In this document: positions 14,972 to 59,468 of the stretch, piece after piece | How positions within the stretch are numbered: position 1 is the first letter of the stretch | How the letters are laid out: each line of letters begins with the position of its first letter | DNA from: Paraburkholderia aromaticivorans | GTDB taxonomy: Bacteria; Pseudomonadota; Gammaproteobacteria; Burkholderiales; Burkholderiaceae | Length of the DNA stretch: 64,000 nt | NCBI RefSeq assembly: GCF_002278075.1 | Contig: NZ_CP022990.1 | Span: 434,001 to 498,000, forward strand | Direction of reading: 5' to 3' | The notes under the pieces: generated by a model | The model's input: the letters and a program-made list of their open reading frames with translations, nothing else | What the model was told of the DNA's origin: nothing | Databases searched by the model: none | Translations under genes and position numbers: made by a program

Positions 14972-16192
14972 TCAGAACCTGAGGCCGGCTTCGCGCAACA
15001 GCGGCAATACCCGCTCGCCGAAGAACTCGAGGTCTGGCTGAAAATCGAAAAAGCTCAACTGCGCGCCGTCGATACCGGCCTCATGCAAGCGCACGATGTA
15101 GTCGGCGATCTGCTGCGGCGAGCCTGCCATCGAGATGTTGCCGCCCACCGCGCGCGCGGCTGCCTGATTGCGCTGTTCGGCGTTGCCGCGCCACGCGTGC
15201 GCGTCGCTCTCGAAGCGATGGAAACTGCCTTCGTCACCATGCGCCACGATCGCGTCGCGATAGGCGAGCGCTTCGGCCTCGGTCTCGCGGCAGATCACCA
15301 TGGGATTGATCAAGGTGCGAACCTTGCGGCCGTACTTCGCCGCAGTCGCCTTCACGCGCGCCGTATGCGCGGGCAGCGCCGCTAACGCCGCTTCGATTTC
15401 GGAGCCGGCCGGACTGGTGATGAACACGACGTCCGAGTAACGCGCGGCGAAGTCGATGCCGGCGTCCGAGCCGGTGGCATTCACCAGAAGCGGGCGGCCG
15501 TATTTCGGCTTAGGCGTGACGAACGCCTTGTCGAGCTTCCAGCTGGACAGCGCGGGCGCGAAGGTGAAATTCTCAGGCTGCGCCCAGAGTTGCTGCACGG
15601 CATCGAGAAACTCGGCTGCCAGTTCGTAGCGCCGGTCATGTTCGATACGCTGCCAGCCGAACATTTCATGCTCGACGGCGCGATGGCCAGTGACGACATT
15701 GATGCCCCACCGCCCCTTCGAAATGTGGTCGAGCGTCGCACTGAATTTGGCGAAGTGCAGTGGATGCCACGGGCCATAAAGCACGTGGCTGGTGGCGACC
15801 AGAATGATGCGTTCGGTGCGTGCCGTCATCGCGGCGAGCGACATGAACGAGTCGAGCGCTTCACCATTGAATACGCCGCCGTAGCCGCCTTTCGGCAGCC
15901 ACTGCGAGAGCGCGAAGACCAGATCGAAGCCGAACGCCTCGGCTTTTTGCACGAGCGCCAGGTTGTAGTCGAAGTTCCAGTCGGTGCTGCGAGGCAGCGT
16001 CGATGCACTCCAGCCACCCGCCTGAATCGGCAGGAAAAGTCCCAGCAGCAAGGGCTGTTCGAGCGCGCGCGCAACCGGGCTATCGGCAAACGCGGCCGGC
16101 GAACGAACCGGAACGAACGGTGTGGCGGCCCGCGCAGCTTCAGCGGAGGTCGTCGAATCCTGCGGTGCAGCGGCGAAAATGGATTGAGTCAC
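14972..16192 (-). CDS. Luciferase-like flavin monooxygenase (RutA/SfnG-like)
   Basis: FMNH2-dependent two-component monooxygenase of the bacterial luciferase superfamily, about 406 residues. LLLGLFLPIQAGGW near 50, GRWGINVVTGHRAVEHEMFG (flavin/phosphate site) near 160 and the tail LSFFDFQPDLEFFGERVLPL match the RutA/dimethylsulfone monooxygenase (SfnG) branch. The sulfone substrate is suggested by context; pyrimidine oxidation (RutA) is the main alternative. The start is uncertain: GTG at 16192 (VTQSIFAAAP) is preferred because the longer reading has poor protein character. It heads the minus-strand group with the DszB-like and SBP genes. Confidence 0.88.
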   Translation of the reverse strand: MTQSIFAAAPQDSTTSAEAARAATPFVPVRSPAAFADSPVARALEQPLLLGLFLPIQAGGWSASTLPRSTDWNFDYNLALVQKAEAFGFDLVFALSQWLPKGGYGGVFNGEALDSFMSLAAMTARTERIILVATSHVLYGPWHPLHFAKFSATLDHISKGRWGINVVTGHRAVEHEMFGWQRIEHDRRYELAAEFLDAVQQLWAQPENFTFAPALSSWKLDKAFVTPKPKYGRPLLVNATGSDAGIDFAARYSDVVFITSPAGSEIEAALAALPAHTARVKATAAKYGRKVRTLINPMVICRETEAEALAYRDAIVAHGDEGSFHRFESDAHAWRGNAEQRNQAAARAVGGNISMAGSPQQIADYIVRLHEAGIDGAQLSFFDFQPDLEFFGERVLPLLREAGLRF

Positions 16193-29097: not shown

Positions 29098-29304
29098 CGG
29101 CGCGGCGAGTGCGAAGCAGGCCGGCGCGGAGCAGGATGGTCGCAAGCGGGAGCGAGCAAACCGATGCTTCTTTAGAAATCACAATTAATTGGTTCGGCTT
29201 CGGCCGTGGATCTTTCATAGTGTCTCCTGATGGCTATAGGCGGTTGCTTTCGCCGTCGTCTTGAACCGGCGCGTAAGGATGCGCGCGATATCGAAGGAGA
29301 CGTC

Positions 29305-29772
29305 ATGACGCTTGAACTCGTAGAACGACCCGCCCACGCGCTGCTCGAAGCCGCCCGCGCCCGTGCCGGCGAAGCCGGCCTTTCCTACGCCGGTGGCGTG
29401 TCGCCGCAGGATGCATGGGCGCTCGTGCAGGCTGGCGCGGCCGTGCTGGTGGACGTACGCACCGCCGAAGAGCGCAAATTCGTCGGACTCGTGCCCGACA
29501 GTCTGCATGTCGCGTGGGCGACCGGGACGGGTCTGACGCGCAATCCGCGCTTTGTGCGTGAACTGGAAGCCAGAACGGGCAAGGATGCAGTCGTGCTGCT
29601 GCTGTGCCGCAGCGGCAACCGTTCCGCGCTGGCTGCGGAAGCTGCCGCGAAGGCGGGCTTCACGCAGGTTTTCAACGTTCTGGAAGGTTTCGAAGGCGAG
29701 CTGGACGACGCGCAACGGCGTGGCGCCAGCAATGGTTGGCGCTTTCACGGGCTGCCGTGGATTCAGGACTGA
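29305..29772 (+). CDS. Single-domain rhodanese (sulfurtransferase)
   Basis: 155 residues. The rhodanese active-site loop is CRSGNRSALAAEAA with catalytic Cys101, which carries a persulfide; LVDVRTAEERKFVGL near 49 is the conserved CH2-type motif. The start follows AAGGAG at good spacing. It is the first gene of the encapsulin operon. Rhodaneses are recurrent partners of family 2A encapsulins and could pass sulfane sulfur to or from the encapsulated desulfurase, or to acceptors such as cyanide or thiols. Confidence 0.95.
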   Translation: MTLELVERPAHALLEAARARAGEAGLSYAGGVSPQDAWALVQAGAAVLVDVRTAEERKFVGLVPDSLHVAWATGTGLTRNPRFVRELEARTGKDAVVLLLCRSGNRSALAAEAAAKAGFTQVFNVLEGFEGELDDAQRRGASNGWRFHGLPWIQD

Positions 29773-29814
29773 AGAGCCAGATCGTCCACGCTGCACTTTA
29801 CGGGAGTCACCGCT

Positions 29815-30792
29815 GTGGCTGTGTTTGATGTCGATGAGATTGTCGAGGCGCTTCAGACGGTCCGCCAGCAATGGCGCGAAGTGCAGAAGCGCTCGCTCGA
29901 ACCGGGCGGGCGCGAATTACCGGGGCGCGAGGCGCTCGCGGAGATTATCGATACGCTCAAGGGCGTGCTGTTTCCGATGCGGCTGGGTCCGCCCGACCTG
30001 CGTCAGGAAAGCGAAAACTTCTACGTCGGGCACGCGCTCGATGCCGCGCTGCATGCGCTTCTGAGCCAGGCGCGGCTGGAGTTGCATTACCGCAGCCGGC
30101 ATCAGCCGCCGCCCGCCGCCACGATCGAAGCGCAGGCGGACATGGCGGTGCGCGCGTTCGCGGCGCGCTTGCCGGCGATTCGCAGCCTGCTCGACAGCGA
30201 CGTGCTGGCGGCGTTTCACGGCGACCCCGCAGCCGGCAGCGTGGACGAAGTGCTGCTGTGTTACCCGGGCGTGCTGGCGATGATCCATCACCGGCTGGCA
30301 CACGAGCTTTATGGGCTGGGCTTGCCGCTGCTCGCCCGCATTGTCGCCGAACTCGCGCATGCGCAAACCGGTATCGATATCCATCCCGGCGCGAAGATCG
30401 GCGCGGGGTTCTTCATCGATCACGGCACCGGCGTGGTGATCGGCGAAACGGCGGTCATCGGCGAGCGCGTGCGTCTTTACCAGGCCGTCACGCTCGGCGC
30501 GAAGCGTTTTCCACGCGATGCGCAGGGTCACCTGGAAAAAGGCCGTGCACGCCATCCGATCGTCGAGGACGACGTGGTGATCTACGCGGGCGCGACCATT
30601 CTTGGCCGCGTCACGCTCGGCCGCGGTTCGGTGATCGGCGGCAATGTGTGGCTGACGCAGGACGTCGCGCCGGGCTCGCATGTGACGCAGGCCGTGTCGC
30701 GCAACGAGGGCGCTGGCGCCGCCGTGAATGCCGGGCGCTCGCCGCGCGGTCATGCGGACGCCACCGCTGTCGCGGCGAGGGCCGCACGATGA
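29815..30792 (+). CDS. Serine O-acetyltransferase (EpsC/CysE type)
   Basis: 325 residues. Acetylates serine to O-acetylserine, the acceptor for sulfide in cysteine synthesis. A helical N-domain (about 1-185) with MIHHRLAHELYGLGLPLLAR near 160 precedes a left-handed hexapeptide helix, with IHPGAKIGAGFFIDHGTGVV near 190 (catalytic His-Asp) and VIGGNVWLTQDVAPGSHV near 275. The length and N-domain match the EpsC form that accompanies encapsulins rather than short CysE. It starts at GTG 29815 after CGGGAG. Its stop overlaps the Xre gene by four bases. It probably refills the cysteine pool used by the desulfurase. Confidence 0.93.
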   Translation: MAVFDVDEIVEALQTVRQQWREVQKRSLEPGGRELPGREALAEIIDTLKGVLFPMRLGPPDLRQESENFYVGHALDAALHALLSQARLELHYRSRHQPPPAATIEAQADMAVRAFAARLPAIRSLLDSDVLAAFHGDPAAGSVDEVLLCYPGVLAMIHHRLAHELYGLGLPLLARIVAELAHAQTGIDIHPGAKIGAGFFIDHGTGVVIGETAVIGERVRLYQAVTLGAKRFPRDAQGHLEKGRARHPIVEDDVVIYAGATILGRVTLGRGSVIGGNVWLTQDVAPGSHVTQAVSRNEGAGAAVNAGRSPRGHADATAVAARAAR

Positions 30793-31064
30793 GCGGACTG
30801 GTCAGGGAGTTCGGTGCCGCGGTGCGGCGGCTTCGCGAGACCCGCGGCTGGTCTCAGGAGCAACTGGCCGAGTACGCCGGACTCAACCGCTCGTATGTCG
30901 GCGAAGTCGAACGCGGCTCCGCGATCGCGTCGATCGTCACGGTCGACAAACTGGCCCGCGCATTCCAGGTGCCGATCGAGCACCTGCTCACCCCGGCTTC
31001 CGACCCCGCGGGCATCGCCGCATTCGCGCGCGCTGCGTTCGTCGATCCCGCATCGGCGAGCTAG
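30789..31064 (+). CDS. Xre-family helix-turn-helix regulator
   Basis: 91 residues, essentially one Cro/C1-type HTH: VRRLRETRGWSQEQLAEYAG near 12 and LNRSYVGEVERGS near 32 form the helices, followed by LARAFQVPIEHLL. It has no effector domain. The ATG overlaps the acetyltransferase stop (ATGA) and the encapsulin gene begins 107 bases later, so it sits inside the sulfur-storage operon and is a likely local regulator of shell expression. Confidence 0.93.
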   Translation: MSGLVREFGAAVRRLRETRGWSQEQLAEYAGLNRSYVGEVERGSAIASIVTVDKLARAFQVPIEHLLTPASDPAGIAAFARAAFVDPASAS

Positions 31065-31171
31065 ATCCCGCTTTACCGTCTATAGCATGTTGAAGGGCCG
31101 GGGTGGTCTCTCGATAATCGCTTTTGCTCATAAGCTTTCCCGCTTTTCTTCTATCAACCCCGGAGCTTCAG
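31065..31171 (+). promoter_or_regulatory. Internal leader of the encapsulin gene with ATAAGCTT motif
   Basis: A 107-base gap, the longest within the operon. It contains TATAGCAT near 31081, ATAAGCTT at 31130-31137 and a TATCAA hexamer at 31152-31157, and ends with GGAG six bases before the encapsulin ATG. The octamer repeats the one found twice upstream of the importer at 22611. This suggests a separate, regulated promoter for shell and cargo. Confidence 0.4.
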
Positions 31172-32104
31172 ATGACAGCAACAGTGGGCGGCCTGACGGC
31201 GCTCGGCGATAACGCAGCACGGCAACTAGCCAATGCCACCAAAACCGTTCCGCAACTTGCCACGATCACGCCGCGCTGGCTGACTCATTTGCTGCAATGG
31301 CTGCCGGTCGAGGCAGGCATCTATCGCCTGAACCAGGTGAAGAATCCGGAAGCCGTGGTGGCCGCCTGCACCGCGCGCGAAGATGAAAGCATCCTGCCGC
31401 GCACCTTCGTGCCGTACGAAGAGCAGCCGCGCGAGTACTTCCTGAATGCCGTCAGCACGGTCCTCGACGTCCACACGCGGATCTCGGATCTGTATAGCAG
31501 CCCGCACGATCAGATCAAGGAACAACTGCGCCTCACGATCGAGACGATCAAGGAATTGCAGGAAAGCCAGTTGATCAACAACCCGGATTACGGCCTGCTC
31601 GCCAACGTGGCGGAAGAGCAGCGCGTGTTTCCGCTGACCGGCGCGCCGACCCCCGACGATCTGGACGAACTGTTGACCAGGGTCTGGAAAGAGCCGGCGT
31701 TCTTCCTGACGCATCCGCTCGCGATCGCCGCCTTTGGCCGCGAATGCACGCGCCGTGGCGTGCCGCCGCCGACGGTCAGCCTGTTCGGCTCGCAGTTCCT
31801 CACATGGCGCGGCATTCCGCTGATTCCGTCGGACAAGGTGCCGGTTGCCGACGGCAAGACCAAGATTTTGCTGCTGCGCGTGGGCGACAAGCGCCAGGGC
31901 GTGGTCGGCCTGTTCCAGCCGGGTGTGGCCGGCGAGCAGGGGCCGGGTCTGTCGGTCCGCTTCATGGGCATCAACAATCACGCGATCGCGTCGTATCTGA
32001 TCTCGCTCTATTGCTCGCTCGCCGTGCATTCGCCGGACGCGCTGGCGGTTCTCGATGACGTGGAGATCGGCAAGTACCATGACTACCCAGACACCTACAA
32101 GTAA
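31172..32104 (+). CDS. Family 2A encapsulin shell protein (SrpI-like)
   Basis: 310 residues with the HK97 phage-capsid fold that self-assembles into a nanocompartment. It matches the cyanobacterial SrpI type closely: the N-arm segment ARQLANATKTVPQLATITPR near 15, VHTRISDLYSSPHDQIKEQL near 100, EPAFFLTHPLAIAAFGRECT near 174 and VRFMGINNHAIASYLISLYC near 270. There is no family 2B cyclic-nucleotide-binding insertion, so it is family 2A, whose cargo is a cysteine desulfurase. The next gene is exactly that and overlaps it. The start follows GGAG. Work on this family shows shells that sequester desulfurase and store elemental sulfur; here that is inferred. Confidence 0.97.
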   Translation: MTATVGGLTALGDNAARQLANATKTVPQLATITPRWLTHLLQWLPVEAGIYRLNQVKNPEAVVAACTAREDESILPRTFVPYEEQPREYFLNAVSTVLDVHTRISDLYSSPHDQIKEQLRLTIETIKELQESQLINNPDYGLLANVAEEQRVFPLTGAPTPDDLDELLTRVWKEPAFFLTHPLAIAAFGRECTRRGVPPPTVSLFGSQFLTWRGIPLIPSDKVPVADGKTKILLLRVGDKRQGVVGLFQPGVAGEQGPGLSVRFMGINNHAIASYLISLYCSLAVHSPDALAVLDDVEIGKYHDYPDTYK

Positions 32105-34166
32105 GCCCATGGAGAGCGTCCTGCCGCACGATGTGCCGGGCGGTCCGTCCGCAGGTTTGCCGGCGGGTTTGCCAGATCCCGCCACGTTGGCGTCGCTGGC
32201 GAATGCGTTCTTTTCGGCGTTGCCGGGCAATGCGCCGCAGTCGGGCGCGACGCCCGGCGTCGCCGGCACGCTGCCGTTCACGGCGCCGGTGATCAGCGAG
32301 ATCAGCAATCCTGCGCCGGCGGGTTCGCCACTCGCGGGCCCTGGCGGCACGGGTACGGGCGTGCCCGGTGCCGCTTTGCCGCAAGGCCACGTGCCCGGTG
32401 GCAACCTGCTGCCCTCGTCGCCCACGCATGTCCTGTCGCTGGGCAACCGCGCGCCTGCGCTGGCGCCGCATGCAACGGCGCAGAACGGTTTGCCCGATAG
32501 CGTCGTGACCATTGCGCCCGCACTCGATCCGCGCTTTGGCGGCGCCGCGCTGGGTGTGCCGCAAGGGCATGGCGCGCAGCGTCCGGCCGCCGGTGGTGCT
32601 TCGCCGGGTTCGCCGGTCTCGCCTGCTTCTCCGGTCTCGCCGGTCTGCGCATCGCCGTTCTATTTCGTGAGCGAATCGGGCCAGCCTCACTCCGCGACCA
32701 CAGCATCGCCGGATATCGTCGTGCCGGTCTGGAACGAGGTCAGTGCGCAATCGTTCGGTCTGCCGGGTGTCGACGAACCGCTTGCCGAGCAACGTTTCCC
32801 CTATGACCGTCCCGCTGCCTCGCATGCGGCGCCGCCGTCGAAGCCCGCGGCACACACGGGCGGCTCGCACTATTTCCTGAATCCGGGCGAGCCGTCGCGC
32901 TCCGCGGGGCAGGTGCCAGGCGTGCCGCATGCCGGAGCGTCCGCCCATCCGCCATTCGACGTGAATGCGATTCGCCGTGATTTCCCGATTCTGCAGGAGC
33001 GAGTGAACGGCCGCCAGCTGGTGTGGTTCGACAATGCCGCGACCACGCACAAACCGCAGGCGGTGATCGACCGGCTGGCGTATTTCTACGCGCATGAAAA
33101 CTCGAACATTCATCGAGCCGCTCATGCGCTGGCCGGCCGCGCCACGGACGCGTACGAAGCCGCGCGCAGCAAGGTGCAGCGTTTCATCGGCGCGGCCTCG
33201 CCGGAGGAAATCATCTTCGTGCGCGGCACCACCGAAGCAATCAACCTGATCGCGAAGACGTGGGGCGTCAAGCATGTCGGCGAGGGGGACGAGATCATCG
33301 TCTCGCACCTCGAGCATCACGCCAACATCGTGCCGTGGCAGCAGCTTGCCGCGCAAACCGGTGCGAAGCTGCGGGTGATTCCGGTCGATGACAGCGGCCA
33401 GGTGCTGCTCGACGAATACCGGCGGCTGCTCAATGACCGCACGAAAATCGTCTCCGTCACGCAGGTGTCGAACGCGCTCGGCACGGTGGTGCCGGTCAAG
33501 GAGATTGTCGAGCTCGCGCATCGGGCGGGCGCGAAGGCATTGGTCGACGGCGCGCAGTCGGTATCGCACATGCGGGTGGACGTGCAGGCCATCGACGCGG
33601 ACTTCTTCGTGTTTTCGGGTCACAAGGTGTTCGGTCCGACCGGCATCGGCGTGGTCTACGGCAAGCGCGCGATTCTGGAAGACATGCCGCCGTGGCAGGG
33701 CGGCGGCAACATGATCGCCGACGTGACGTTCGAGCGCACGGTGTTCCAGCCGCCGCCGAATCGTTTCGAAGCCGGCACGGGCAATATCGCCGATGCAGTG
33801 GGTCTGGGCGCGGCAATCGATTACGTTCAGCGCGTGGGCATCGAGAATATCGCGCGCTACGAGCACGATCTGCTGGCGTATGCGACGAGCGTGTTGCAAC
33901 CGGTGCCCGGTGTGCGTCTGATCGGCACCGCGCGCGACAAGGCGAGCGTGCTGTCCTTCGTGCTGAAGGGCTACGAGACCGAGGAAGTCGGTCAGGCGCT
34001 CAACGAAGAGGGCATTGCCGTGCGCTCGGGGCATCACTGTGCGCAGCCGATCTTGCGACGCTTCGGCGTCGAAGCGACCGTGCGGCCGTCGCTCGCGTTC
34101 TATAACACCTGCGATGAAGTCGACGCGCTGGTGTCGGTGGTGCGACGGTTGTCTTCACGACGCTAA
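32079..34166 (+). CDS. Encapsulin cargo cysteine desulfurase with long disordered N-terminal domain
   Basis: About 695 residues from ATG 32079; ATG 32109 is an alternative. Residues 1-290 are Pro/Gly/Ala/Ser-rich and predicted disordered, with short motifs that could dock to the shell: DPATLASLANAFFSALPG (33-50), SPFYFVSE (192-199) and HYFLNPGEPSR (about 264-274). Residues 293-695 are a SufS-like PLP desulfurase: VWFDNAATTHKP near 314, PLP lysine 516 in FSGHKVFGPTG, catalytic Cys654 in RSGHHCAQPILRRFG. It converts cysteine to alanine plus enzyme persulfide. The gene overlaps the encapsulin gene by 26 bases, giving translational coupling of cargo to shell. Confidence 0.95.
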   Translation: MTTQTPTSKPMESVLPHDVPGGPSAGLPAGLPDPATLASLANAFFSALPGNAPQSGATPGVAGTLPFTAPVISEISNPAPAGSPLAGPGGTGTGVPGAALPQGHVPGGNLLPSSPTHVLSLGNRAPALAPHATAQNGLPDSVVTIAPALDPRFGGAALGVPQGHGAQRPAAGGASPGSPVSPASPVSPVCASPFYFVSESGQPHSATTASPDIVVPVWNEVSAQSFGLPGVDEPLAEQRFPYDRPAASHAAPPSKPAAHTGGSHYFLNPGEPSRSAGQVPGVPHAGASAHPPFDVNAIRRDFPILQERVNGRQLVWFDNAATTHKPQAVIDRLAYFYAHENSNIHRAAHALAGRATDAYEAARSKVQRFIGAASPEEIIFVRGTTEAINLIAKTWGVKHVGEGDEIIVSHLEHHANIVPWQQLAAQTGAKLRVIPVDDSGQVLLDEYRRLLNDRTKIVSVTQVSNALGTVVPVKEIVELAHRAGAKALVDGAQSVSHMRVDVQAIDADFFVFSGHKVFGPTGIGVVYGKRAILEDMPPWQGGGNMIADVTFERTVFQPPPNRFEAGTGNIADAVGLGAAIDYVQRVGIENIARYEHDLLAYATSVLQPVPGVRLIGTARDKASVLSFVLKGYETEEVGQALNEEGIAVRSGHHCAQPILRRFGVEATVRPSLAFYNTCDEVDALVSVVRRLSSRR

Positions 34167-34168
34167 AC

Positions 34169-34205
34169 AAAGGCGGCGGCCGGCCACGGCTGCCGCCTTT
34201 TTCCT
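34169..34205 (+). terminator. Rho-independent terminator of the encapsulin operon
   Basis: AAAGGCGGC (34169-34177) pairs with GCCGCCTTT (34192-34200) as a nine-base stem with a GC-rich loop, followed by T-residues (34198-34202). It lies three bases after the desulfurase stop codon. Confidence 0.9.
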
Positions 34206-34388: not shown

Positions 34389-35744
34389 TCACGCGGTCGC
34401 CGCCGCTTCCCGTGTTTCGAGGTGGCGGCTCACGGGCCGTTGCAGCCTGAAATGCTCGCGCAACGTGCGCCCTTCATACGCGGTACGAAAGATGCCACGC
34501 TGTTGCAAAAGCGGCACCACGCCGTCCGCGAAATCCTGCAAACCGCCCGGCAAAACATCCGGCATGAGATTGAACCCATCGGCGGCGCCGCCTTTGAACC
34601 AGTGTTCGATATCGTCGGCAATCTGCTCCGGCGTGCCGACGATCACCCGGTGCCCGCCACCGCCCGCCAGCGCGCGGATCAACTGGCGAGCCGTGTAGCC
34701 ATTCGAGCGCGCTTGCGCGAGCGTGGCATGGAAGAACGTGTGATTGCCGTTGCCGCCGCCGGGCAGTGACAGATCATCCGGCAGGCGCTCGTCGAGTTTC
34801 AGGCGCTCGACGCTCACGCCCAAGATGCCCGCGAGCCGGGTGAGGCTGTAGGTCCACGGGATCAGGTCGACCAGTTCATCGCGACGGCGCAGCGCTTGCG
34901 CCTCGGTCGCGCCGATGATGGTGGTCAGGCCGGGCAACACGCGGATCGCGTCGTCGCCGCGTCCCCATGCCGCGGCGCGCGATTTGAGTTCACGCGCGTA
35001 AGAAGCCGCTTCGTCGAACGACTGCGACGCGGAGAACACGGCTTCCGCGTGGCGCGACGCAAGCTCCCGCCCATCCGCCGAGCCGCCGGCCTGGACCAGC
35101 ACGGGATGACCCTGAGCACTGCGCGGCAGATTGAACGGGCCGTCCACGTTGAAGTATTTACCGCGATGGTCGATGCGATGCACTTTCGCCGCATCGACGA
35201 AACGGCCGTTCACCTTGTCGCCGATCAAGGCGTCGTCTTCCCAGCTATCCCACAGCGCCTTCACGACCTGCGTGAATTCGGCCGCGCGCTCGTAGCGCGC
35301 GGCGTGATCGGGCACCGCCTCGCGGCCGAAGTTGCGCGCCGAGCCGAGGTCCGCGGTCGTCACGATGTTCCAGCCCGCGCGCCCCGCGCTGAGGTGATCG
35401 AGCGTGGCGAAGCGCCGCGCGATGTTATATGGCTCGTTATAACTGGTCGACGCCGTGCCGATCACGCCGATATGGGTCGTGGCCGAAGCAATGCCGGCCA
35501 GCAAAACGGTCGGCTCCAGCGCGGTGATCGGCCGGAAGTCGATCTGATCCGCGATCGACGCATTGTCGGCGAGAAACACGGCATCGAACTTCGCCGCCTC
35601 GGCAATCTGCGCGACGCGAACGTAATGAGCGATATCGATGAACGCGCGAGGATCCGCGTCGTCGGTGCGCCACGCGGAAGGGACGAAGCCCGAGTGGAGG
35701 ATGTTGACGTTCAGATGGAGCTGGCGCGGCGGGTCGGTTCTCAT
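34389..35744 (-). CDS. DszA/NtaA-family FMNH2-dependent monooxygenase
   Basis: 451-residue luciferase-like flavoprotein. LHLNVNILHSGFVPSAWR at the start, RFATLDHLSAGRAGWNIVTT near 110, the substrate-loop region HRIDHRGKYFNVDGPFNLPR near 187, and the tail GGAADGFNLMPDVLPGGLQD mark the NtaA/SnaA/DszA branch. These enzymes use free FMNH2 from a separate reductase and include DszA (sulfone) and nitrilotriacetate or pristinamycin oxidases. The start was set at MRTDPPRQLHLN. It is a single-gene unit near other organosulfur oxygenases; the substrate is unknown. Confidence 0.92.
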   Translation of the reverse strand: MRTDPPRQLHLNVNILHSGFVPSAWRTDDADPRAFIDIAHYVRVAQIAEAAKFDAVFLADNASIADQIDFRPITALEPTVLLAGIASATTHIGVIGTASTSYNEPYNIARRFATLDHLSAGRAGWNIVTTADLGSARNFGREAVPDHAARYERAAEFTQVVKALWDSWEDDALIGDKVNGRFVDAAKVHRIDHRGKYFNVDGPFNLPRSAQGHPVLVQAGGSADGRELASRHAEAVFSASQSFDEAASYARELKSRAAAWGRGDDAIRVLPGLTTIIGATEAQALRRRDELVDLIPWTYSLTRLAGILGVSVERLKLDERLPDDLSLPGGGNGNHTFFHATLAQARSNGYTARQLIRALAGGGGHRVIVGTPEQIADDIEHWFKGGAADGFNLMPDVLPGGLQDFADGVVPLLQQRGIFRTAYEGRTLREHFRLQRPVSRHLETREAAATA

Positions 35745-36449: not shown

Positions 36450-36619
36450 CGGGTTTGCGACGGCGGCCATTGACGCGTGCATTATCAGCAGGGCTGCTTA
36501 GCACCTGAGAATTGCTTGGTTCGTGCCGTCCGCATGCGTTGTTAGAGTCTGCGTCTCACGCTCAGGGCGCGCGCCGTTCGATAACGCGCGGCCCATCAAA
36601 ACAACAGGAAACCACCGTT

Positions 36620-37438
36620 ATGAATCTCAGAGTGCTTGGCGCAGTGATCGCCGGAAGTCTGCTTGTCATGTCCGCTGCCGCGCACGCGGATCGCCTCGAC
36701 GACATCAAGAAAGCGGGTGTGTTGCGCGTGGCCGCATTCGACAGCAATCCGCCGTTCGGCTTCGTGGATCCGAAGAGCAACCAGATTGTCGGGCTCGACG
36801 TCGATTATGCGCGAGCGCTGGCGACGCGCCTTGGCGTCAAGCTCGAGATCCAGCCGACCAATCCGGCCAACCGCATCGCGTTCCTGAAGTCGGGCAAGGT
36901 GGATCTGGTGTTCGCCAACTTTACGATTACCGACGATCGCAAGAAGGAAGTGGACTTCAGCACCCCGTATTTTGCGTCCGGCACGCAATTCATCGCGAAG
37001 AAAGGCACGCTCACCTCGCCGCAGCAACTGAACGGTTTGCGGATCGGCGCTGACAAGGGCACGACCAATGAGCAGCAGGTGCGTGCGCAATTCCCGAGCG
37101 CCACGATCATTGCCTACGACGACACGCCGTTCGCATTCGCCGCGCTTCGCACGGGCAACGTGCAGGCGATCACGCAAGACGGGCCGAAGCTCGTCGCCTT
37201 GCTGGCGAAAGTGCCGGACAAGGCGAACTACGAGATCGCGCCGTTCACGATCTCCAACGACTACGAAGGCGTGGGCGTGCCGAAGGGCGAGACACGCCTG
37301 CTGGATGTCGTCAACGACACGCTGAAGGATCTGGAAGCCAAAGGTGCGGCCGGCAAGATCTACGATGCCTGGTTCGGCCCGAAGAGCGCCGCGCCGCTGC
37401 CGCGTCTGTTCAAGATCGGCGATCCGCAGAAGAGCTGA
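36620..37438 (+). CDS. Amino-acid ABC transporter substrate-binding protein (family 3)
   Basis: 272-residue periplasmic receptor with a Sec signal (cleavage after AHA near 22). Family 3 marks are GVLRVAAFDSNPPFGFVDPK near 32, GLDVDYARALATRLGVKLEI near 60, DLVFANFTITDDRKKEVDFS near 96 and GTTNEQQVRAQFP near 148. Polar amino acids, including cystine, are the usual ligands; the sulfur context favours a sulfur amino acid, but this is inference. It is followed by a strong hairpin and then two permease genes. Confidence 0.93.
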   Translation: MNLRVLGAVIAGSLLVMSAAAHADRLDDIKKAGVLRVAAFDSNPPFGFVDPKSNQIVGLDVDYARALATRLGVKLEIQPTNPANRIAFLKSGKVDLVFANFTITDDRKKEVDFSTPYFASGTQFIAKKGTLTSPQQLNGLRIGADKGTTNEQQVRAQFPSATIIAYDDTPFAFAALRTGNVQAITQDGPKLVALLAKVPDKANYEIAPFTISNDYEGVGVPKGETRLLDVVNDTLKDLEAKGAAGKIYDAWFGPKSAAPLPRLFKIGDPQKS

Positions 37439-37467
37439 CGGGCTTCGCTTCGCAGCCGCCTCGAACA

Positions 37468-37501
37468 GGCCCGGTCACTGCCCAAAACGCGTGACCGGGC
37501 C
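37468..37501 (+). terminator. Intercistronic hairpin between receptor and permease genes
   Basis: GGCCCGGTCAC (37468-37478) pairs perfectly with GTGACCGGGCC (37491-37501) over 11 bases around a 12-base loop, followed by TTCTT. As a partial terminator or RNA-stabilising stem, it would give more receptor than permease. Confidence 0.7.
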
Positions 37502-37533
37502 TTCTTGCTGATACGGAACCGCGTTTTTTTCGA

Positions 37534-38274
37534 ATGCACCTCATGAATTTCTGGCTGGATCCGCGTTATCTCGGCTGGCTCGCACAGGGCTTTCTCGTCA
37601 CCCTGATGCTGTCGGCATGCGTGAGCGTCTGCGCGACGCTGCTTGGATTCGGGCTGGCAATGGCCCATATCGCGCAACATCGCACGGTCGCTGCGGCCGC
37701 GAGGGCCTACGTACTCGTGTTTCGCAATTCTCCGCTGCTGGTGCAATTGCTGTTCTGGTACTTCGGCGCGGCGGCGCTGCTGCCGCAACCGTGGATGACG
37801 TGGCTGACCACGCCGCATGGGTTGAGCGCTGGGCCGTTTGCGCTGCACTGGCCGAGCTTCGAGCTGTTCGCCGGCTGGCTCGGCCTGACCTGCTATAGCA
37901 CAGCCTTCATCGCAGAGGAGTTTCGCGCCGGAATCCGTGGCGTGGGCATCGCGCAATACCACGCGGGCGCCGCATTGGGCATGACGCGTTACACGACGCT
38001 GCGGCACGTCGTTCTTCCGCAAGCGGTGCGTATCGCCACGCCGCCGCTCGCGGGGCAATACATGAATATCGTGAAGAACTCGTCGCTGACGATGGCGATC
38101 GGCGTGGCCGAACTCTCTTACATGTCGCGTCAGGTCGACACGGAAAGCTTCCGGACCTTTCAGGCCTTCGGCACGGCGACCGTGCTGTATATCGGCGCTA
38201 TCGCGCTGATCGAAACGGCGTTGGTGATCTGGCAACGCACCGGTGCGCGGGCGTTGCAGCGGGGCCGGGCATGA
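37534..38274 (+). CDS. Amino-acid ABC transporter permease (HisM/GlnP type), first
   Basis: 246-residue inner-membrane permease. Hydrophobic segments lie near 17-40, 58-85, 100-125 and 195-230, with the EAA coupling loop FRAGIRGVGIAQYHAGAALG near 131 and LRHVVLPQAVRIATPPLAGQ following. VFRNSPLLVQLLFWYF near 65 is typical of polar amino-acid permeases. ATG 37534 or the in-frame ATG at 37543 could be used. Its stop overlaps the next permease (ATGA). Confidence 0.94.
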   Translation: MHLMNFWLDPRYLGWLAQGFLVTLMLSACVSVCATLLGFGLAMAHIAQHRTVAAAARAYVLVFRNSPLLVQLLFWYFGAAALLPQPWMTWLTTPHGLSAGPFALHWPSFELFAGWLGLTCYSTAFIAEEFRAGIRGVGIAQYHAGAALGMTRYTTLRHVVLPQAVRIATPPLAGQYMNIVKNSSLTMAIGVAELSYMSRQVDTESFRTFQAFGTATVLYIGAIALIETALVIWQRTGARALQRGRA

Positions 38275-39014
38275 CCGCGCTCGAGTGGCTGCCCACGCTG
38301 CGCTATCTGCTGCTCGGCGCGTTCCCCAATGGGCCGCTGGGCGGCGCGGCGCTCACGGCCGTGCTCTCGGTGGTGTCGGCGTTGCTATCCGCGCTAGCGG
38401 GGTTGGCGGGCGGCGTGGCGCTTTCGCTGACACGCGGCGGCGCGCATCTGCTGCTGCTCGGGATCGTCGCGTTTTTCAGGGCGATTCCGGTGCTGATGCT
38501 GATCTTCTGGACTTTCTTCCTGATGCCGATCCTCCTGCATATCGACGTGCCGGGTCTGGCCGCGGTGGTGTGCGCGCTGTCGCTGATCGGTGGCGCGTAT
38601 CTGTCGCATGCGGTGCATGCGGGCATCGTGTCGGTCGGCGCGGGGCAGCAGCAGGCGGCGCTGTCGCTCGGGCTCACGCGCTGGCAGGCGTTGCGTCATG
38701 TGGTGCTGCCGCAGGCGGTGCGCATCATGATGCCGTCGTTCGTCAATCAGTGGGTGTCGCTGGCCAAGGACACTTCGCTCGCGTATATCGTCGGCGTGCC
38801 GGAATTCACGTTTCTCGCCAATCAGGTCAACAGCCGGCTGATGATCTACCCCGCGCAGATTTTCGTGTTCGTCGGCATCGTTTATCTGCTGCTGTGCTCC
38901 GCGTTGCAATGGATCGCTCATCGCATCCTGCTGCGCGCGCCGTCCGCTCGTGCTGCCGCTCGCAAGGATGAGGAAACGGCGACGCCATTGCCGCTTGGCG
39001 GGCTCAGCGAATGA
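38271..39014 (+). CDS. Amino-acid ABC transporter permease, second
   Basis: 247 residues, the second half of the heterodimeric channel. AFFRAIPVLMLIFWTFFLMP near 66 and the coupling loop QQQAALSLGLTRWQALRHVV near 125 are family marks. It overlaps the first permease by four bases. No ATPase gene follows or precedes, which is unusual because these operons normally encode a GlnQ-type ATPase. Confidence 0.94.
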   Translation: MTALEWLPTLRYLLLGAFPNGPLGGAALTAVLSVVSALLSALAGLAGGVALSLTRGGAHLLLLGIVAFFRAIPVLMLIFWTFFLMPILLHIDVPGLAAVVCALSLIGGAYLSHAVHAGIVSVGAGQQQAALSLGLTRWQALRHVVLPQAVRIMMPSFVNQWVSLAKDTSLAYIVGVPEFTFLANQVNSRLMIYPAQIFVFVGIVYLLLCSALQWIAHRILLRAPSARAAARKDEETATPLPLGGLSE

Positions 39015-39221
39015 AGAGAACCACTGGACAATGACGCGAGCACGATCCGCAAATCGGCACGCGTCATAAGCAATCGCGAATTCGATAGTAGGCGTGATGC
39101 GCGGGGACTGGTCCAATAGATGATTAGCCTTTCCGTGGCGAGTCGCAGCCGTGCCGCTGCCTATGGCAACGGGCGGAAAACGCCGCGAACGGACGGGTCT
39201 CAACTGTCTGTGTGAACCATC

Positions 39222-40472
39222 ATGTCCAGTCTTACATCTCGCCCTGTCGCGTCGCGACTGCCGGCGCGTCCCGACCCGCCACGCGTCGCGCGAATCGCCG
39301 ACGACGCGCAGGCGCTCGCCGCGTCCCGCACACTTGCCGACGCTTTCGCGTCCGGCGCCGCCGAACGTGACCGTGATCGCGTGCTGCCATGGACCGAACT
39401 GGATCTATGGTCGCAAAGCGGTCTCGGCGCCATCACCGTGCCGCGCGACCATGGCGGCGCCGACGTGTCGTTCGCGACGCTGGCCGAAGTCTTCGTGAAC
39501 CTCTGCGCGGCCGATCCCGCGCTGGGGCAGATTCCGCAGAACCATTTCGGCGTGCTGGGCGTGCTGCGCGAAGCCGGCACCCCGGCGCAGAAGCAGCGGC
39601 TGTACGGCGAAGTGCTGGCGGGCCAGCGGCTTGGCAATGCCGGCCCGGAACGGCGCTCGGCCGCGGCCGCGACGGTGCTGCAGGGCTCGACGCGCCTGCG
39701 CGCGACGCCGGACGGTTTGCGTCTCGACGGCCAACGATTCTATTCGACCGGCGCGCTGTTCGCGCACCGCGTCCCGACCCGCGCGACCGACGACGAAGGA
39801 CGCGCCGTGCAGGTCTGGGTGCCGCGCGACGCGCCGGGCTTGACGGTGGTCGACGACTGGAGTTCTTTCGGCCAGCGCACCACGGCGAGCGGCACCGTGA
39901 CCTTCGAGAACGTGGCGGTCGATCCGCAGGACGTGCTGCCGATCTGGCAACTGGCCGACCGTCCGGGTCTGTTCGGCCCGACCTCGCAACTGATCCAGGC
40001 GGCGATCGACCAGGGGATCGCGCAGGGCGCCGTCGCCGACGCGCTTGCCTTCGTGCGCGAGCGCGCGCGGCCGTGGGTCGATTCGGGCCTCGAGCACGCA
40101 ACCGACGACCCGTACATCATCGCCGATGTCGGCCGTCTGGAGATCGATCTGCATGCGGCGCATGAAGTGCTGCTGGAAACCGGCCGCACGCTGGACGCCA
40201 TCGCGGCCCAGCCGATCGACCCCGAGGCCAGCGCGCGCGCATCCGTCGCGGTTGCCGAGGCGAAGGTGCTGACCACCCGCATCGCGCTCGAAGCCAGCGA
40301 AAAGCTCTTTGAACTGGCGGGCTCCGCGTCGACCCGCGCGGTGCACAACCTCGACCGCCATTGGCGCAACGCCCGCACCCATACGCTGCACGACCCGGTG
40401 CGCTGGAAGCTGCATCTGCTCGGCAACTATCACCTGAATCAAGTGCTTCCCGCGCGGCATTCGTGGAACTGA
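39222..40472 (+). CDS. SfnB/DszC-family flavin monooxygenase, first of a tandem pair
   Basis: 416 residues of the acyl-CoA dehydrogenase fold in the SfnB sulfur-acquisition branch. LGAITVPRDHGGADVSFATL near 67, DPALGQIPQNHFGVLGVLRE near 97, LRLDGQRFYSTGALFAHRVP near 165 and the C-terminal FWRN-type motif LDRHWRNARTHTLHDPVRWK match DszC. The family oxidises organosulfur or sulfone substrates with FMNH2 during sulfate limitation. It heads an operon with a second SfnB, a DszA-like enzyme and SsuD. CATAAGC at about 39064 lies in its upstream region. Confidence 0.92.
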   Translation: MSSLTSRPVASRLPARPDPPRVARIADDAQALAASRTLADAFASGAAERDRDRVLPWTELDLWSQSGLGAITVPRDHGGADVSFATLAEVFVNLCAADPALGQIPQNHFGVLGVLREAGTPAQKQRLYGEVLAGQRLGNAGPERRSAAAATVLQGSTRLRATPDGLRLDGQRFYSTGALFAHRVPTRATDDEGRAVQVWVPRDAPGLTVVDDWSSFGQRTTASGTVTFENVAVDPQDVLPIWQLADRPGLFGPTSQLIQAAIDQGIAQGAVADALAFVRERARPWVDSGLEHATDDPYIIADVGRLEIDLHAAHEVLLETGRTLDAIAAQPIDPEASARASVAVAEAKVLTTRIALEASEKLFELAGSASTRAVHNLDRHWRNARTHTLHDPVRWKLHLLGNYHLNQVLPARHSWN

Positions 40473-40475
40473 ATC

Positions 40476-41738
40476 ATGACCATTGACCTTTCTAGCGCGG
40501 CCCGCGGCAGCGCCGCGCCGGCCGCCTTGCCTCGCGAACTGCGCGCGCCGCCCACGCCCGAGCTGATCGCAGACGACGCGCAGGCGCTTCTCGCCGCCCG
40601 CCGTCTGGCCGAAACGTTTGCACCGGAAGCCGCGCTGCGCGATCGCGAACGGCGGCTGCCGTGGGCCGAACTCGACGCCTTCGTGGCGAGCGGCCTGTGG
40701 GGCATAACCGTGCCGCGCGAATTCGGCGGTGCGGGCGTGCGCAACGGCACGCTCGCCGAAGTCACCGCGACGATCGCCGCGGCCGACGGCTCGCTCGGCC
40801 AGATCCCGCAAAACCATTTCTATGCACTCGAGGTGCTGCGCGTCGGCGGCAGTCCTGAGCAACAGCGTTTTTTCTACGGACGCGTGCTGGCGGGCGAGCG
40901 TTTCGGCAATGCGCTCGCCGAAATCGGCCACAAGGATTTCAAACGCCGCACCCGGCTCACACGCGGGGCGGCCGGCTGGCGCATCGACGGCCAGAAGTTC
41001 TATTGCACGGGCGCGCTCTACGCACACTGGATTCCCACGCTGGTCGTGGCCGACGAGCAGGGCCGCGATGTCACCTATCTGGCGTTCGTGCCACGCAATA
41101 CCGCGGGCGTCACCGTCACGGACGACTGGGATGGCTTCGGCCAGCGCGTCACCGGCAGCGGGTCGGTGCGGTTCGATCACGTGCGCGTCGAACCCGAATG
41201 GGTCGTGCCGTTTCAGGCGTCGTTCGAGCGCCCCACGACGATCGGACCGGTCGCGCAGATCATTCACGCGGCGATCGATCTCGGTCAGGCGCGCGGCGCC
41301 TTCGCAGCCGCGCTGAAGTTCGTTCGCGAGCGTTCGCGGCCGTGGATCGACGCGAAGGTCGAACGTGCCGCCGACGATCCGCTGACCCTCGCGCAGTTCG
41401 GCGACCTCTCGGTGCGGCTGCGCGCGGCCGAGGCGTTGCTGCGCCGCGCGGGCCGCTTCGTCGACGCGGCGCAGGCGCAGCCCACCGGGCGGACGGTCGC
41501 GCAGGCCTCGATCGCCGTGGCCGAGGCGCGCGCGCTGACCACGACCGCGTCGCTGGATGCCGGTTCGCGGCTGTTCGAACTCGCCGGCACCGCCGCGACC
41601 CTCGATGGTCTCGGCCTCGACCGCTTCTGGCGCAATGCGCGCACCCATACGTTGCACGACCCCGTGCGCTGGAAGTATCACGCGGTGGGCAACTTCTACC
41701 TCAACGACAAGCTGCCGCCGCGGCATGGAGCCTTGTGA
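40476..41738 (+). CDS. SfnB/DszC-family flavin monooxygenase, second of the pair
   Basis: 420 residues, the same architecture as its upstream neighbour but diverged: LWGITVPREFGGAGVRNGTL near 75, DGSLGQIPQNHFYALEVLRV near 105, WRIDGQKFYCTGALYAHWIP near 167, tail LDRFWRNARTHTLHDPVRWK. It starts four bases after the first gene's stop and its stop overlaps the DszA-like start (TGATG). The tandem arrangement suggests duplication with distinct substrates or a hetero-oligomer. Confidence 0.92.
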   Translation: MTIDLSSAARGSAAPAALPRELRAPPTPELIADDAQALLAARRLAETFAPEAALRDRERRLPWAELDAFVASGLWGITVPREFGGAGVRNGTLAEVTATIAAADGSLGQIPQNHFYALEVLRVGGSPEQQRFFYGRVLAGERFGNALAEIGHKDFKRRTRLTRGAAGWRIDGQKFYCTGALYAHWIPTLVVADEQGRDVTYLAFVPRNTAGVTVTDDWDGFGQRVTGSGSVRFDHVRVEPEWVVPFQASFERPTTIGPVAQIIHAAIDLGQARGAFAAALKFVRERSRPWIDAKVERAADDPLTLAQFGDLSVRLRAAEALLRRAGRFVDAAQAQPTGRTVAQASIAVAEARALTTTASLDAGSRLFELAGTAATLDGLGLDRFWRNARTHTLHDPVRWKYHAVGNFYLNDKLPPRHGAL

Positions 41739-43108
41739 TGGCGAAGAAACAGATCCTGCTCAACGCGTTCAACATGAACTGCGTGGGCCACATCAACCAC
41801 GGCCTGTGGACACATCCGCGCGACCGTTCGAGCGACTACCGGCTGCTGCCGTATTGGACCAACCTCGCGCGCACGCTGGAGCGTGGGCTGTTCGACGGGC
41901 TCTTTCTCGCCGACATCGTCGGCGTGTACGACGTGTATCAGCACAACGTCGACGTGACGCTGCGCGAATCGATCCAGTTGCCCGTCAACGATCCCACGCT
42001 GCTGGTCCCGGCAATGGCCGCCGTCACCGAGCACCTCGGCTTCGGCGTGACGGTCAATCTGACTTATGAGCAGCCGTATCTGCTCGCGCGCCGCTTCTCG
42101 ACGCTGGATCATCTGACGCAAGGCCGGGTCGGCTGGAACATCGTGACGGGCTACCTCGACAGCGCGGCACGCGCAATGGGGCTCAACGAGCAACTCCCGC
42201 ACGACGAGCGCTACGACCGCGCCGACGAATACCTGGAGATTCTCTACAAGCTGTGGGAAGGCAGCTGGGAGCAGGGCGCGGTGCTGCGCGACAAGGCGGG
42301 GCGCGTGTATGCGGACCCGGCCAGGGTTCATCCGGTGCGGCACGCGGGCCGCTACTACAAGGTCGACGGTTATCACCTCGCGGAACCGTCGCCGCAGCGC
42401 ACGCCGGTGCTGTTCCAGGCCGGCAGTTCCGGGCGCGGTCAGCGCTTCGGGGCGCGTCACGCCGAATGCGTGTTCATCTCGCCGCCGAACCGGCAAGCCG
42501 CGCGGGAAACCGTGCGCACGTTGCGCGAGCAACTGGTGCGGGCCGGCCGCCGCCCCGACGACGTCAAGGTGTTCGTCGGCGCAGCGGTGGTTGCGGGGGC
42601 TACCGGGCAACAGGCCCGCGAGAAATACGCGGACTATCTGCAATACGCGAGCCGCGAAGCGGGCCTTGCGCACTTCGCGGCCAGTACCGGCATCGACTAC
42701 GCGCAATACGATCTCGACGCCCCGGTGGACTACGCACCCGGCAACGCAATCGAATCGGCCACGCGCACGGCGAAACAGCACGGCTGGACCCGCCGCAAGC
42801 TGCTGGAGATGTTCGAACTCGGCGGCCGCTATCCGGCCATTGTCGGCAGCGCGGCTCAGGTGGCCGACGAACTGCAGGCGTGGATCGAGGAGACGGGCGT
42901 CGACGGTTTCAATCTCAGCCGCACGGTGGTGCCCGAAAGCTACGAGGATTTCATCGATCTGGTCGTGCCGGAATTGCAGAATCGCGGCCTCTACAAGACC
43001 GCCTATGCCGATGGCACGCTGCGCCACAAACTGTTCGGACAGGGCGATGAGCTGCCTGCGCGACACGCGGCGGCGAGCTTCCGGCAGCAAACCGCGGAGG
43101 CGGTATGA
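41738..43108 (+). CDS. DszA-like FMNH2-dependent monooxygenase
   Basis: 456 residues. It resembles DszA, which opens a sulfone ring in the 4S pathway: [14 protein letters not shown] segment [20 protein letters not shown] near 48, [20 protein letters not shown] near 112, [20 protein letters not shown] near 155, [20 protein letters not shown] near 195 and [20 protein letters not shown] near 390. The ATG at 41738 overlaps the SfnB stop by one base. Having SfnB/DszC-like and DszA-like enzymes in one operon supports successive oxidation of an organosulfur compound; the true substrate is unknown. Confidence 0.92.
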
Positions 43109-43154: not shown

Positions 43155-44297
43155 ATGAGTCTCGATATCTTCTGGTTTCTGCCGACCTCGGGCGATACAC
43201 GCTATCTCGGCAAGTCCGATTTCGGCCGGCCGCCGACCAACGAATACATGCGTCAGATCGCGGTCACGGCCGAGAATCTCGGCTACGACGGCTTGCTGAT
43301 TCCGACCGGCAGCAGTTGCCAGGATCCGTGGGTCACTGCCGCGAGCCTCGTGCCCGTCACACAGCGCATCAAACTGCTGGTCGCGTTGCGCACTTCGATC
43401 AGCGGCCCGACGGCCGCCGCGCGCCAGGCCGCGACGCTCGACCAGGCGTTGCACGGACGCCTGTTGCTCAACGTGGTGCCCGGCGGCGACGCCACCGAAC
43501 TCGCCGCGGACGGCGTGTTTCTCGCTCACGACGAGCGCTATGCGGCCGCCGACGAGTTCCTCACCGTCTGGCGCGATCTGCTCGCCGGCGAGACGGTGGA
43601 CTTCAAGGGCAAATACGTTCACGTGGAAGGGGCGCGCAACTTTCATCCGCCGGTGCAGCAGCCCTGGCCGCCGCTGTACTTCGGCGGATCGTCGCCGGCC
43701 GCGCACGAGCTGGCGGCCAAGCACGTGGATGCCTACTTGACGTGGGGCGAGCCGCCCGCGGCCGTCGCCGAAAAGTTCGCCGACGTGCAGCGGCGCGCGG
43801 CCGCCCACGGCCGCAAGCTGCGGCTCGGGGTGCGTCTGCATGTGATCGTGCGCGAAACCAACGAGGAGGCATGGGCCGAAGCCGACCGCCTCATCAGCAA
43901 GCTCGACGACGAAGACATCCGCCGTGCGCAGGAGAATTACGCGCGCATGGATTCGGTCGGGCAGCGCCGCATGGCGGAGTTGCACGGCGGGCGCCGCGAC
44001 AAGCTGGAGATCAGCCCGAACCTGTGGGCCGGCGTCGGTCTCGTGCGCGGCGGAGCGGGCACGGCGCTGGTCGGCGACGCGCTGACGGTCGCCGCGCGGC
44101 TGCAGGAATATGTCGATGCGGGCGCGGATAGTTTCGTGCTGTCCGGCTATCCGCACCTCGAAGAGTCGATCCGTTTTGCGGAGCTCGTGTTCCCGTTGTT
44201 GCCCGGCAAGAAGCCGGTCACGTTGCGCGATCAGGTGCTCACAGGCGGTGCTTTCGATGTGCGGGCGAACGCGGGTGCGGGCACGGGTGCGCACTGA
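43155..44297 (+). CDS. ssuD: FMNH2-dependent alkanesulfonate monooxygenase
   Basis: 380-residue luciferase-like enzyme that splits alkanesulfonates into aldehyde and sulfite. SsuD hallmarks are close to complete: [39 protein letters not shown] near 48 (Cys in SCxD), [20 protein letters not shown] near 90, [20 protein letters not shown] near 175, [20 protein letters not shown] near 230 and [20 protein letters not shown] near 285. The C-terminus is short and ends in a Gly/Ala-rich tail. No SsuE reductase lies alongside, so reduced flavin must come from elsewhere. It is the last gene of the operon. Confidence 0.95.
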
Positions 44298-56977: not shown

Positions 56978-56985
56978 GAACGCCA

Positions 56986-57294: not shown

Positions 57295-57299
57295 AGATC

Positions 57300-58963: not shown

Positions 58964-59058
58964 CCTCGCCGCGACGCGAGCCCTGATGCGCCGTGGCTCA
59001 CGGCGCATACAAAATCCGGCGGCCCCCCAGCCGATAAAGCCAATACTGGAGACACAAC

Positions 59059-59454: not shown

Positions 59455-59468
59455 AGCAGGGGTCCATC

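Follow-up and report, generated by a model that had tools for sequence, protein, structure and literature searches.

The 64-kb stretch of Paraburkholderia aromaticivorans DNA analysed here (contig NZ_CP022990.1; hereafter the window) carries a family 2A encapsulin operon in which genes for a rhodanese-like sulfurtransferase, a serine acetyltransferase (SAT), a small Xre-type regulator, the encapsulin shell and its cargo cysteine desulfurase follow one another. The compartment is a known one; the variant found in Burkholderiales has a regulator of its own and a probable operator for that regulator. We favour, at a probability of roughly 70%, a reading in which the operon has two transcriptional inputs (a CysB-type box and Xre operators) and acts as a sulfur bank.

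The 310-residue shell protein scores 521.8 bits against the NCBIfam model encap_f2a (cut-off 380) and 337.3 bits against the Pfam SrpI-like model (cut-off 22.8), so that the family 2A shell proposed in the initial annotation was recovered by profile search against the family 2 models. The protein also passes the family 2B model, with a lower score (409.3 bits, cut-off 400) and over part of that model. The mark of family 2B is a CRP/FNR cyclic-nucleotide domain (PMC8049743); the shell lacks such a domain, the SrpI-like match being the only Pfam match in its 310 residues. The HK97 fold that had been anticipated is supported by sequence homology to the solved shells 8t6r (E-value (E) 4.4e-166) and 6x8m, and the SrpI cargo-site residues F262 and Y273 (PMC8049743) correspond by the alignment offset to F264 and Y275 here. 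The desulfurase matches NF041166, the model for family 2A cargo cysteine desulfurases, at 964.7 bits (cut-off 800). Its N-terminal region contains LASLANAFFS at residue 37, SPFYFV at 192 and SHYFLNPG at 263, motifs which fit the two cargo-loading motifs described in Synechococcus elongatus (LARLANEFFS and AASPYYFLDG; PMC8049743); score and motifs together uphold its predicted role as cargo. On sequence grounds, membership of the shell-cargo system in encapsulin family 2A is not in doubt, and the compartment is unexceptional within a family already known. Rhodanese and acetyltransferase as partners have already been published, as have desulfurase encapsulins of Burkholderia species (PMC8346489); so has the general siting of family 2A next to sulfur genes (PMC8049743).

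A scan of named genomes, which confirmed at least 589 relatives and from which the best 80 loci were kept (their titles name Burkholderiales), found all five genes in the same order in 71 of the 80 loci, all from other genomes, an arrangement which is thus beyond chance. Seven of the nine exceptions lack a match at a contig end; the others are L019 and L079, the latter being without Xre. The shell gene is present in 26 of 98 relatives and in 21 of 58 same-genus genomes including the window's own, a patchiness that suggests gain and loss. The window locus is close to one on chromosome 2 of P. xenovorans LB400 (L003), in agreement with the beta-proteobacterial origin assigned at the outset.

Upstream of the shell start lies a 16-base element, GGCTATAGCATGTTGA or a close variant. 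A match at 13 or more of the 16 positions is present in all but one of the 80 loci and in only 1 of 5,374 control windows. The sole miss is Ottowia thiooxydans L079, the locus without an Xre gene. The core of the proposed Xre operator is GGCTATAGC. The element is non-coding in 49 of the 79 loci, where it lies 1–97 bases past the Xre stop codon, and is therefore mostly conserved as non-coding DNA, which rules out conserved protein sequence as its explanation; in the remaining 30 the stop codon forms its last three bases. Adding 34 further loci from relatives and plasmid records gave 114 (the window itself stands outside this set, and two shell loci on short contigs of genome G087 are uncounted), 103 of which have an Xre homologue within 1.2 kb upstream of the shell. 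The element, at the same threshold, is found in 103/103 loci with an adjacent Xre and in 0/11 without, among which the maximum in a 200-base window is 10/16; Xre-less L145 reaches 12/16 at -244 in a 300-base window and 9 in the 200-base window. Azospirillum L144 was counted as Xre-less despite a different XRE-family gene. These 114 rows correspond to 103 different but related proteins, so that a Fisher test on these counts overstates their independence; a maximum-likelihood shell tree needs three changes for Xre and element, interpreted as a single gain plus two losses, at L079 and L153, in which the element was lost along with Xre, and it is the two losses that constitute independent evidence. 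Within the helix-turn-helix, R34, Y36, E39, E41 and R42 are conserved at 1.0 to two decimals across 104 sequences. The 16-base element is probably the operator of the operon's own Xre. An Xre switch specific to the operon had been suggested in the initial annotation, and the matching probable operator, the co-occurrence and the top-ranked genome sites bear this out.

Several loci depart from this pattern. In L019, from a metagenome-assembled genome titled Burkholderiales bacterium, the rhodanese gene directly adjoins the Xre gene without an acetyltransferase match in between, a cargo match is missing at the contig end, and the element is retained; the SAT gene thus seems dispensable for the Xre-operator pair. 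The L079 operon has no Xre, no shell-side element and no clear starvation box, and its control must differ; the species name suggests sulfur oxidation. Genome G004 carries two shell copies, L171, which keeps both Xre and element, and L153 (G004:C44:88700-108699), a more divergent shell-cargo pair with no rhodanese, SAT or Xre match and no element, about 1.4 kb from an SfnB-model match below cut-off; it is possibly a degenerating or repurposed copy. A divergent 199-residue XRE protein lies beside the shell in L144 (Azospirillum p3) and an Rrf2 protein in L143 (Methylosinus pOB3b1), which suggests repeated recruitment of regulators. Six exact 16-base matches in viral contigs had no operon gene alongside in the surrounding DNA examined and were taken as chance.

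A second probable operator, O1, lies in the leader. The corresponding sequence TGATGGCNATAG, on either strand, is matched before the rhodanese gene at 11 or more of 12 bases in 79 of 100 Xre-containing loci with a rhodanese match and in 12 of 5,106 control windows. A simple operator pattern was uninformative across the genome (55 matches against 195 for a reversed control), and a profile of the shell-side sites (R1), built from 39 of 78 distinct sites, was used instead. In the 8.9-Mb genome of the window's own strain, where the best 150 of 3,888 first-look candidates were scored, R1 places the shell-side site O2 first (E 3.2e-4), O1 second (E 0.87) and a third site at E 1.35. The search of 38 relatives from the genus found sites at E<0.01 in every one of the 20 that have a shell, 23 in total. 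Shell genes adjoin 22 of them; the remaining one comes after SAT and Xre genes, at 0.4 kb from the edge of its contig, and evidently belongs to an operon cut by assembly. None of the 18 shell-less relatives has an R1 site at E<0.01. The training set of R1 included some of the sites later searched for. A further 12 matches are weaker (E of 0.3 or less), and two of these, at E 0.049 and 0.179, come from genomes that have no shell. Because R1 sites concentrate at the operon, the Xre looks like a dedicated local regulator, and the placement of O2 over the -35 and of O1 after the proposed -10 suggests repression. At L223 (G016:C141, a contig end) R1 led to a probable second encapsulin operon that is truncated there, with SAT and Xre genes upstream and a luciferase-like monooxygenase (LLM) nearby.

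Regulators of the CysB family respond to acetylserine and switch on genes needed in sulfur starvation. Upstream of O1, 69 of 103 loci have a box like TTTTATTSGTT, matched at 10 or more of its 11 bases; control windows reach this level in 7 of 3,970 cases. By this measure the copy in the window itself is a weaker one, yet it is the top site in its genome for the box profile R2, which was used after the simple pattern proved to be at chance level in the window (3 matches, 3.73 expected). The own-genome R2 search scored the best 150 of 661 candidates, and the only other match among those listed lies between the divergent cysI and cysB genes (E 2.67), with the box oriented towards cysI as it is towards the rhodanese gene. 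The cysB product belongs to the CysB family (566.8 bits); the protein of the divergent gene matches sulfite/nitrite reductase relatives below cut-offs, and we take it to be CysI from that match and its position, and presume the region between the two genes to be bound by CysB. The R2 search was extended to 24 more genomes of the genus, 15 of which have a shell. Of its 50 matches with E no higher than 5, rhodanese promoters account for 13 and the cysI-cysB region for 14, each in a different genome; the other 23 lie elsewhere. The window also has a weaker relative of the box, whose end lies 97 bases ahead of its cystine-type transporter gene. Where this gene occurs in other loci (at least 50% identity), the box score exceeds the null 95% level of 4.0 in 9 of 10 cases, the null 99% level being 21.8. 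Box scores at SfnB, SsuD and NtaA genes vary, few of them standing clearly above the null 95% level, and were not used as evidence. Before the SfnB genes, window positions 39080-39092 read ATTCGATAGTAGG, which has similar counterparts before SfnB and SsuD in some relatives and is possibly another CysB-family-like box. In one shell-less genome a strong box match of 18.4 bits (L187, G001:C2:893993) lies near genes for an AMP-binding enzyme and a PhyH-type dioxygenase.

The coordinates of the operon, its candidate control sites and its surroundings are collected in the table. The description of five consecutive plus-strand genes ending in a strong terminator was borne out in full, including the ATGA overlap of acetyltransferase and Xre genes at 30789-30792 and the 26-base overlap of shell and cargo genes (32079-32104); a 4-base, ATGA-like overlap of SAT and Xre genes recurs in 73 of 101 loci. 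The terminator hairpin was absent from the output of pattern-based terminator detection. The acetyltransferase had been named as a serine acetyltransferase, and it passes the EpsC model while scoring 165.6 bits against the cysE model, under the cut-off of 210.65. The cargo motifs lie at residues 37, 192, 263, 513 and 650. SGHKVFGP and SGHHCAQ in the cargo and CRSGNRS in the rhodanese are present, and we take these to hold the pyridoxal phosphate lysine and the catalytic cysteines. The 64-kb window contains no Rfam match at gathering cut-offs and no tRNA match.

Table. Encapsulin operon, candidate control sites and neighbouring sulfur genes, in window coordinates.
Feature	Position	Strand	Evidence
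Luciferase-like monooxygenase	14972..16192	-	best match SfnG, below cut-off
CysB-type box upstream of rhodanese (TTTAGAAATCACAATTAATTGGTTC...)	29171..29196	+	profile R2: best site in window and own genome
Proposed leader -10 (CATAGT)	29216..29221	+	recurs between box and operator in other loci; by eye
Probable Xre operator O1 (TGATGGCTATAGGCGGTT), just downstream of proposed -10	29228..29245	+	second-best own-genome match, E 0.87
Rhodanese-like sulfurtransferase	29305..29772	+	Pfam PF00581 50.3 bits; loop CRSGNRS at residue 101
Serine O-acetyltransferase (EpsC/CysE type)	29815..30792	+	GTG start; NCBIfam EpsC 160.1 bits, cut-off 150
Xre-type regulator, 91 residues, highly conserved helix-turn-helix	30789..31064	+	Pfam HTH_3 58.1 bits; alignment of 104
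Probable Xre operator O2 (GTCTATAGCATGTTGA), overlaps -35	31078..31093	+	best own-genome match, E 3.2e-4
Shell promoter: -35 TTGAAG, 17 bases, -10 GATAAT	31090..31118	+	one promoter-like site, 0.7 expected by chance; conserved
Family 2A encapsulin shell, 310 residues	31172..32104	+	encap_f2a 521.8 bits; PDB 8t6r, 6x8m
Cargo cysteine desulfurase, 695 residues, long N-terminal targeting domain	32079..34166	+	NF041166 964.7 bits
Intrinsic terminator hairpin	34169..34202	+	-29.3 kcal/mol, z -5.6, 0/200 shuffles as good
NtaA/DmoA-family flavin mononucleotide (FMN) monooxygenase	34389..35744	-	TIGR03860 533.1 bits
Weaker box relative before cystine-type transporter	36498..36523	+	E 0.46 in window; score 21.0
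Cystine-type amino-acid ATP-binding cassette (ABC) binding protein and two permeases	36620..39014	+	below equivalog cut-offs
Two SfnB-family sulfur-acquisition oxidoreductases	39381..41738	+	553.3 and 615.3 bits
NtaA/DmoA-family FMN monooxygenase	41738..43108	+	560.2 bits
Alkanesulfonate monooxygenase SsuD	43155..44297	+	600.0 bits

The operon is flanked by organosulfur genes, and proximity to such genes is statistically real in Paraburkholderia. Across 21 same-genus genomes with 24 shell loci, 12 loci have an SfnB-model match (E<=1e-60) within 20 kb, against 0.67 expected, and at least 18 have an NtaA/DmoA gene within that distance, against 0.97 expected; these expectations assume random placement, and five genomes of other families, three of them without any SfnB-family match, were left out of the proximity tests. 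As a control, mdcA (malonate decarboxylase; 24 loci in the same genomes) lies near either family in 1 of 24 cases among the matches listed, the single positive being the window's own locus; on the same matches, the shell differs from mdcA with Fisher probabilities of 7e-4 (SfnB) and 6e-7 (NtaA/DmoA). Aldehyde dehydrogenase, a partial control with 488 matches in total, had none within 20 kb of a shell among the matches listed. Within about 10 kb the 24 loci represent 18 distinct upstream contexts, or 8 groups when linked by either side, and the contribution of shared descent to the recurrence is limited. In the named set, an organosulfur gene (at least 40% identity) was found in the surrounding DNA of 25 of 80 loci, and there was none within about 10 kb in 11 named Burkholderia loci (L014, L022, L025-L029, L032, L036, L037 and L041). 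The cystine-type importer is also a recurrent neighbour; no ATPase gene was noticed beside its binding protein and permeases in the window annotation. Control of the scavenging genes by Xre was rejected, as the own-genome matches among the best 150 candidates include no Xre site at them and the extra matches in the window are at chance level (E 0.66 or worse). The link between scavenging and storage drawn in the initial annotation therefore stands as a statistical proximity in Paraburkholderia, and falls as a universal arrangement (0 of 11 Burkholderia) or one mediated by Xre. Elsewhere, the operon on a Variovorax plasmid has as its neighbours genes for a TauD-type dioxygenase, a CysB-type regulator and an LLM oxidoreductase, and the window itself contains a malonate decarboxylase cluster with a MadM transporter at 54414-60236, a second mdcA being present elsewhere in the genome.

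In the sulfur-bank reading, by analogy with related systems, the shell would enclose the cysteine desulfurase, sulfur would be stripped from cysteine and banked in the cage, the rhodanese would probably handle the released sulfane sulfur, and the acetyltransferase would supply O-acetylserine for recapture of the sulfur as cysteine. Sulfur shortage is predicted to turn on the leader promoter through a CysB-family activator; Xre made from the leader transcript would then limit both promoters through O1 and O2 (predicted repression), and the separation of the two operators would allow enzymes and shell to be set independently. In this way cage and desulfurase would put surplus sulfur from cysteine into protected storage. 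The siting of the Paraburkholderia operons in organosulfur neighbourhoods is consistent with use during growth on sulfonates or sulfones. Sulfur storage itself is inferred here, being carried over from relatives. A more ambitious version, namely a Burkholderiales gated sulfur bank with a CysB-type on-switch and an Xre repressor with its own operators, adjoined in Paraburkholderia by sulfite-releasing oxygenases such that bursts of organic sulfur are banked, is put forward tentatively, its odds falling well short of even.

A number of observations weigh against the sulfur bank or one of its two inputs. Knockouts in the S. elongatus relative grew without defect (PMC8049743). No recognisable sensor domain was found in Xre by Pfam and NCBIfam model searches. 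O1 is at background (9 or fewer of 12) in 12 of the 100 Xre-containing loci, Paraburkholderia included, and its genome-wide E is only 0.87. For the box, 23 of the 50 R2 matches lie at neither the rhodanese promoter nor cysI-cysB; those at cysI-cysB score poorly (E 2.67 for the one in the window's own genome) and, being orthologous, count as one event. In every genome searched with R1 or R2, scoring was confined to the 150 best first-look candidates. At the curated SfnB cut-off the neighbours within 20 kb fall to 7 of 24 loci (0.24 expected), and 55 of the 80 named loci have no organosulfur gene at 40% identity or more, some of the stretches being short.

Three other explanations deserve comparison. 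The 16-base element could be a generic promoter or leader element that serves shell transcription through RNA polymerase or some other factor and is linked to Xre only incidentally, and its last bases do double as the -35 (TTGA); we regard this as quite improbable, given that the element is absent from all 11 Xre-less loci that retain the shell, two of which lie inside the Xre clade, that the related sequence at the rhodanese promoter sits elsewhere, after the proposed -10, and that the Xre recognition helix is highly conserved. It is rather unlikely that the cage shields or speeds a desulfurase which passes persulfide via the rhodanese to a specific acceptor (iron-sulfur clusters or cofactors) with no storage. 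A rhodanese gene in the operon, an earlier proposal of channelling (PMC8346489) and the roughly sevenfold rise in S. elongatus desulfurase activity upon encapsulation (PMC8049743) all speak for such a role; set against them is the elemental sulfur stored by the Acinetobacter baumannii family 2A compartment, according to the title of Benisch 2024 (in the reference list of PMC11946847), together with the 80.4% identity of the shell in an A. baumannii record.

The organosulfur neighbourhood, for its part, might be a by-product of accessory islands on secondary replicons, storage and scavenging being functionally unlinked. Such an origin would suit the 11 named Burkholderia loci with no organosulfur neighbour, the lack of Xre sites at scavenging genes and the recurrence of the cystine-type importer as a neighbour. 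It accounts poorly for the excess of SfnB and NtaA/DmoA neighbours over expectation, for the single mdcA positive in the same genomes among the matches listed, and for the 18 distinct upstream contexts, though these reduce to 8 groups by either-side linking, and we consider it somewhat doubtful.

Three aspects are new as far as the literature searched extends, namely a conserved probable operator that travels with the operon's Xre, the candidate CysB-type box of the leader promoter and a recurrent organosulfur setting in Paraburkholderia. That literature showed no link of encapsulin with organosulfur, of encapsulin with sulfonate and desulfurase, of encapsulin with CysB, or of SrpI, desulfurase and Burkholderia, and the matches listed include no encapsulin work on the XRE family, the supplementary neighbour tables of PMC8049743 lying outside this scope; the available part of PMC8346489 does not mention 'xre'. 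Now that the operon has a candidate starvation box and an identified regulator with a proposed pair of operators, the timing and purpose of sulfur caging become testable by binding and knockout experiments, and the operon's repeated occurrence next to oxygenases for sulfonates and sulfones suggests a role in soil ecology, namely the use of patchy organic sulfur.

Within the window's own genome, the cysI-cysB region shares the orientation of the box with the rhodanese promoter and is not among the Xre operator matches listed. The SrpI/CyD system of S. elongatus PCC 7942 (PDB 6x8m; PMC8049743) has a shell 74.7% identical to that of the window, a desulfurase cargo with the two N-terminal motifs, and epsC and rhodanese genes in its cluster; unlike the window, it has no Xre gene and no element, includes cysK and follows another gene order. 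In A. baumannii (PDB 8t6r), rhodanese, SAT, shell and cargo genes stand in the window's order, whereas the locus has neither a homologue of the window's Xre nor the element. The nearest counterparts are the two copies in P. xenovorans LB400, L003 on chromosome 2 and L002 on chromosome 3, which have the same five genes and shells 99% identical: L003 shares the window's downstream neighbours as far as the SfnB genes, while L002 has other neighbours and keeps the cystine-type transporter.

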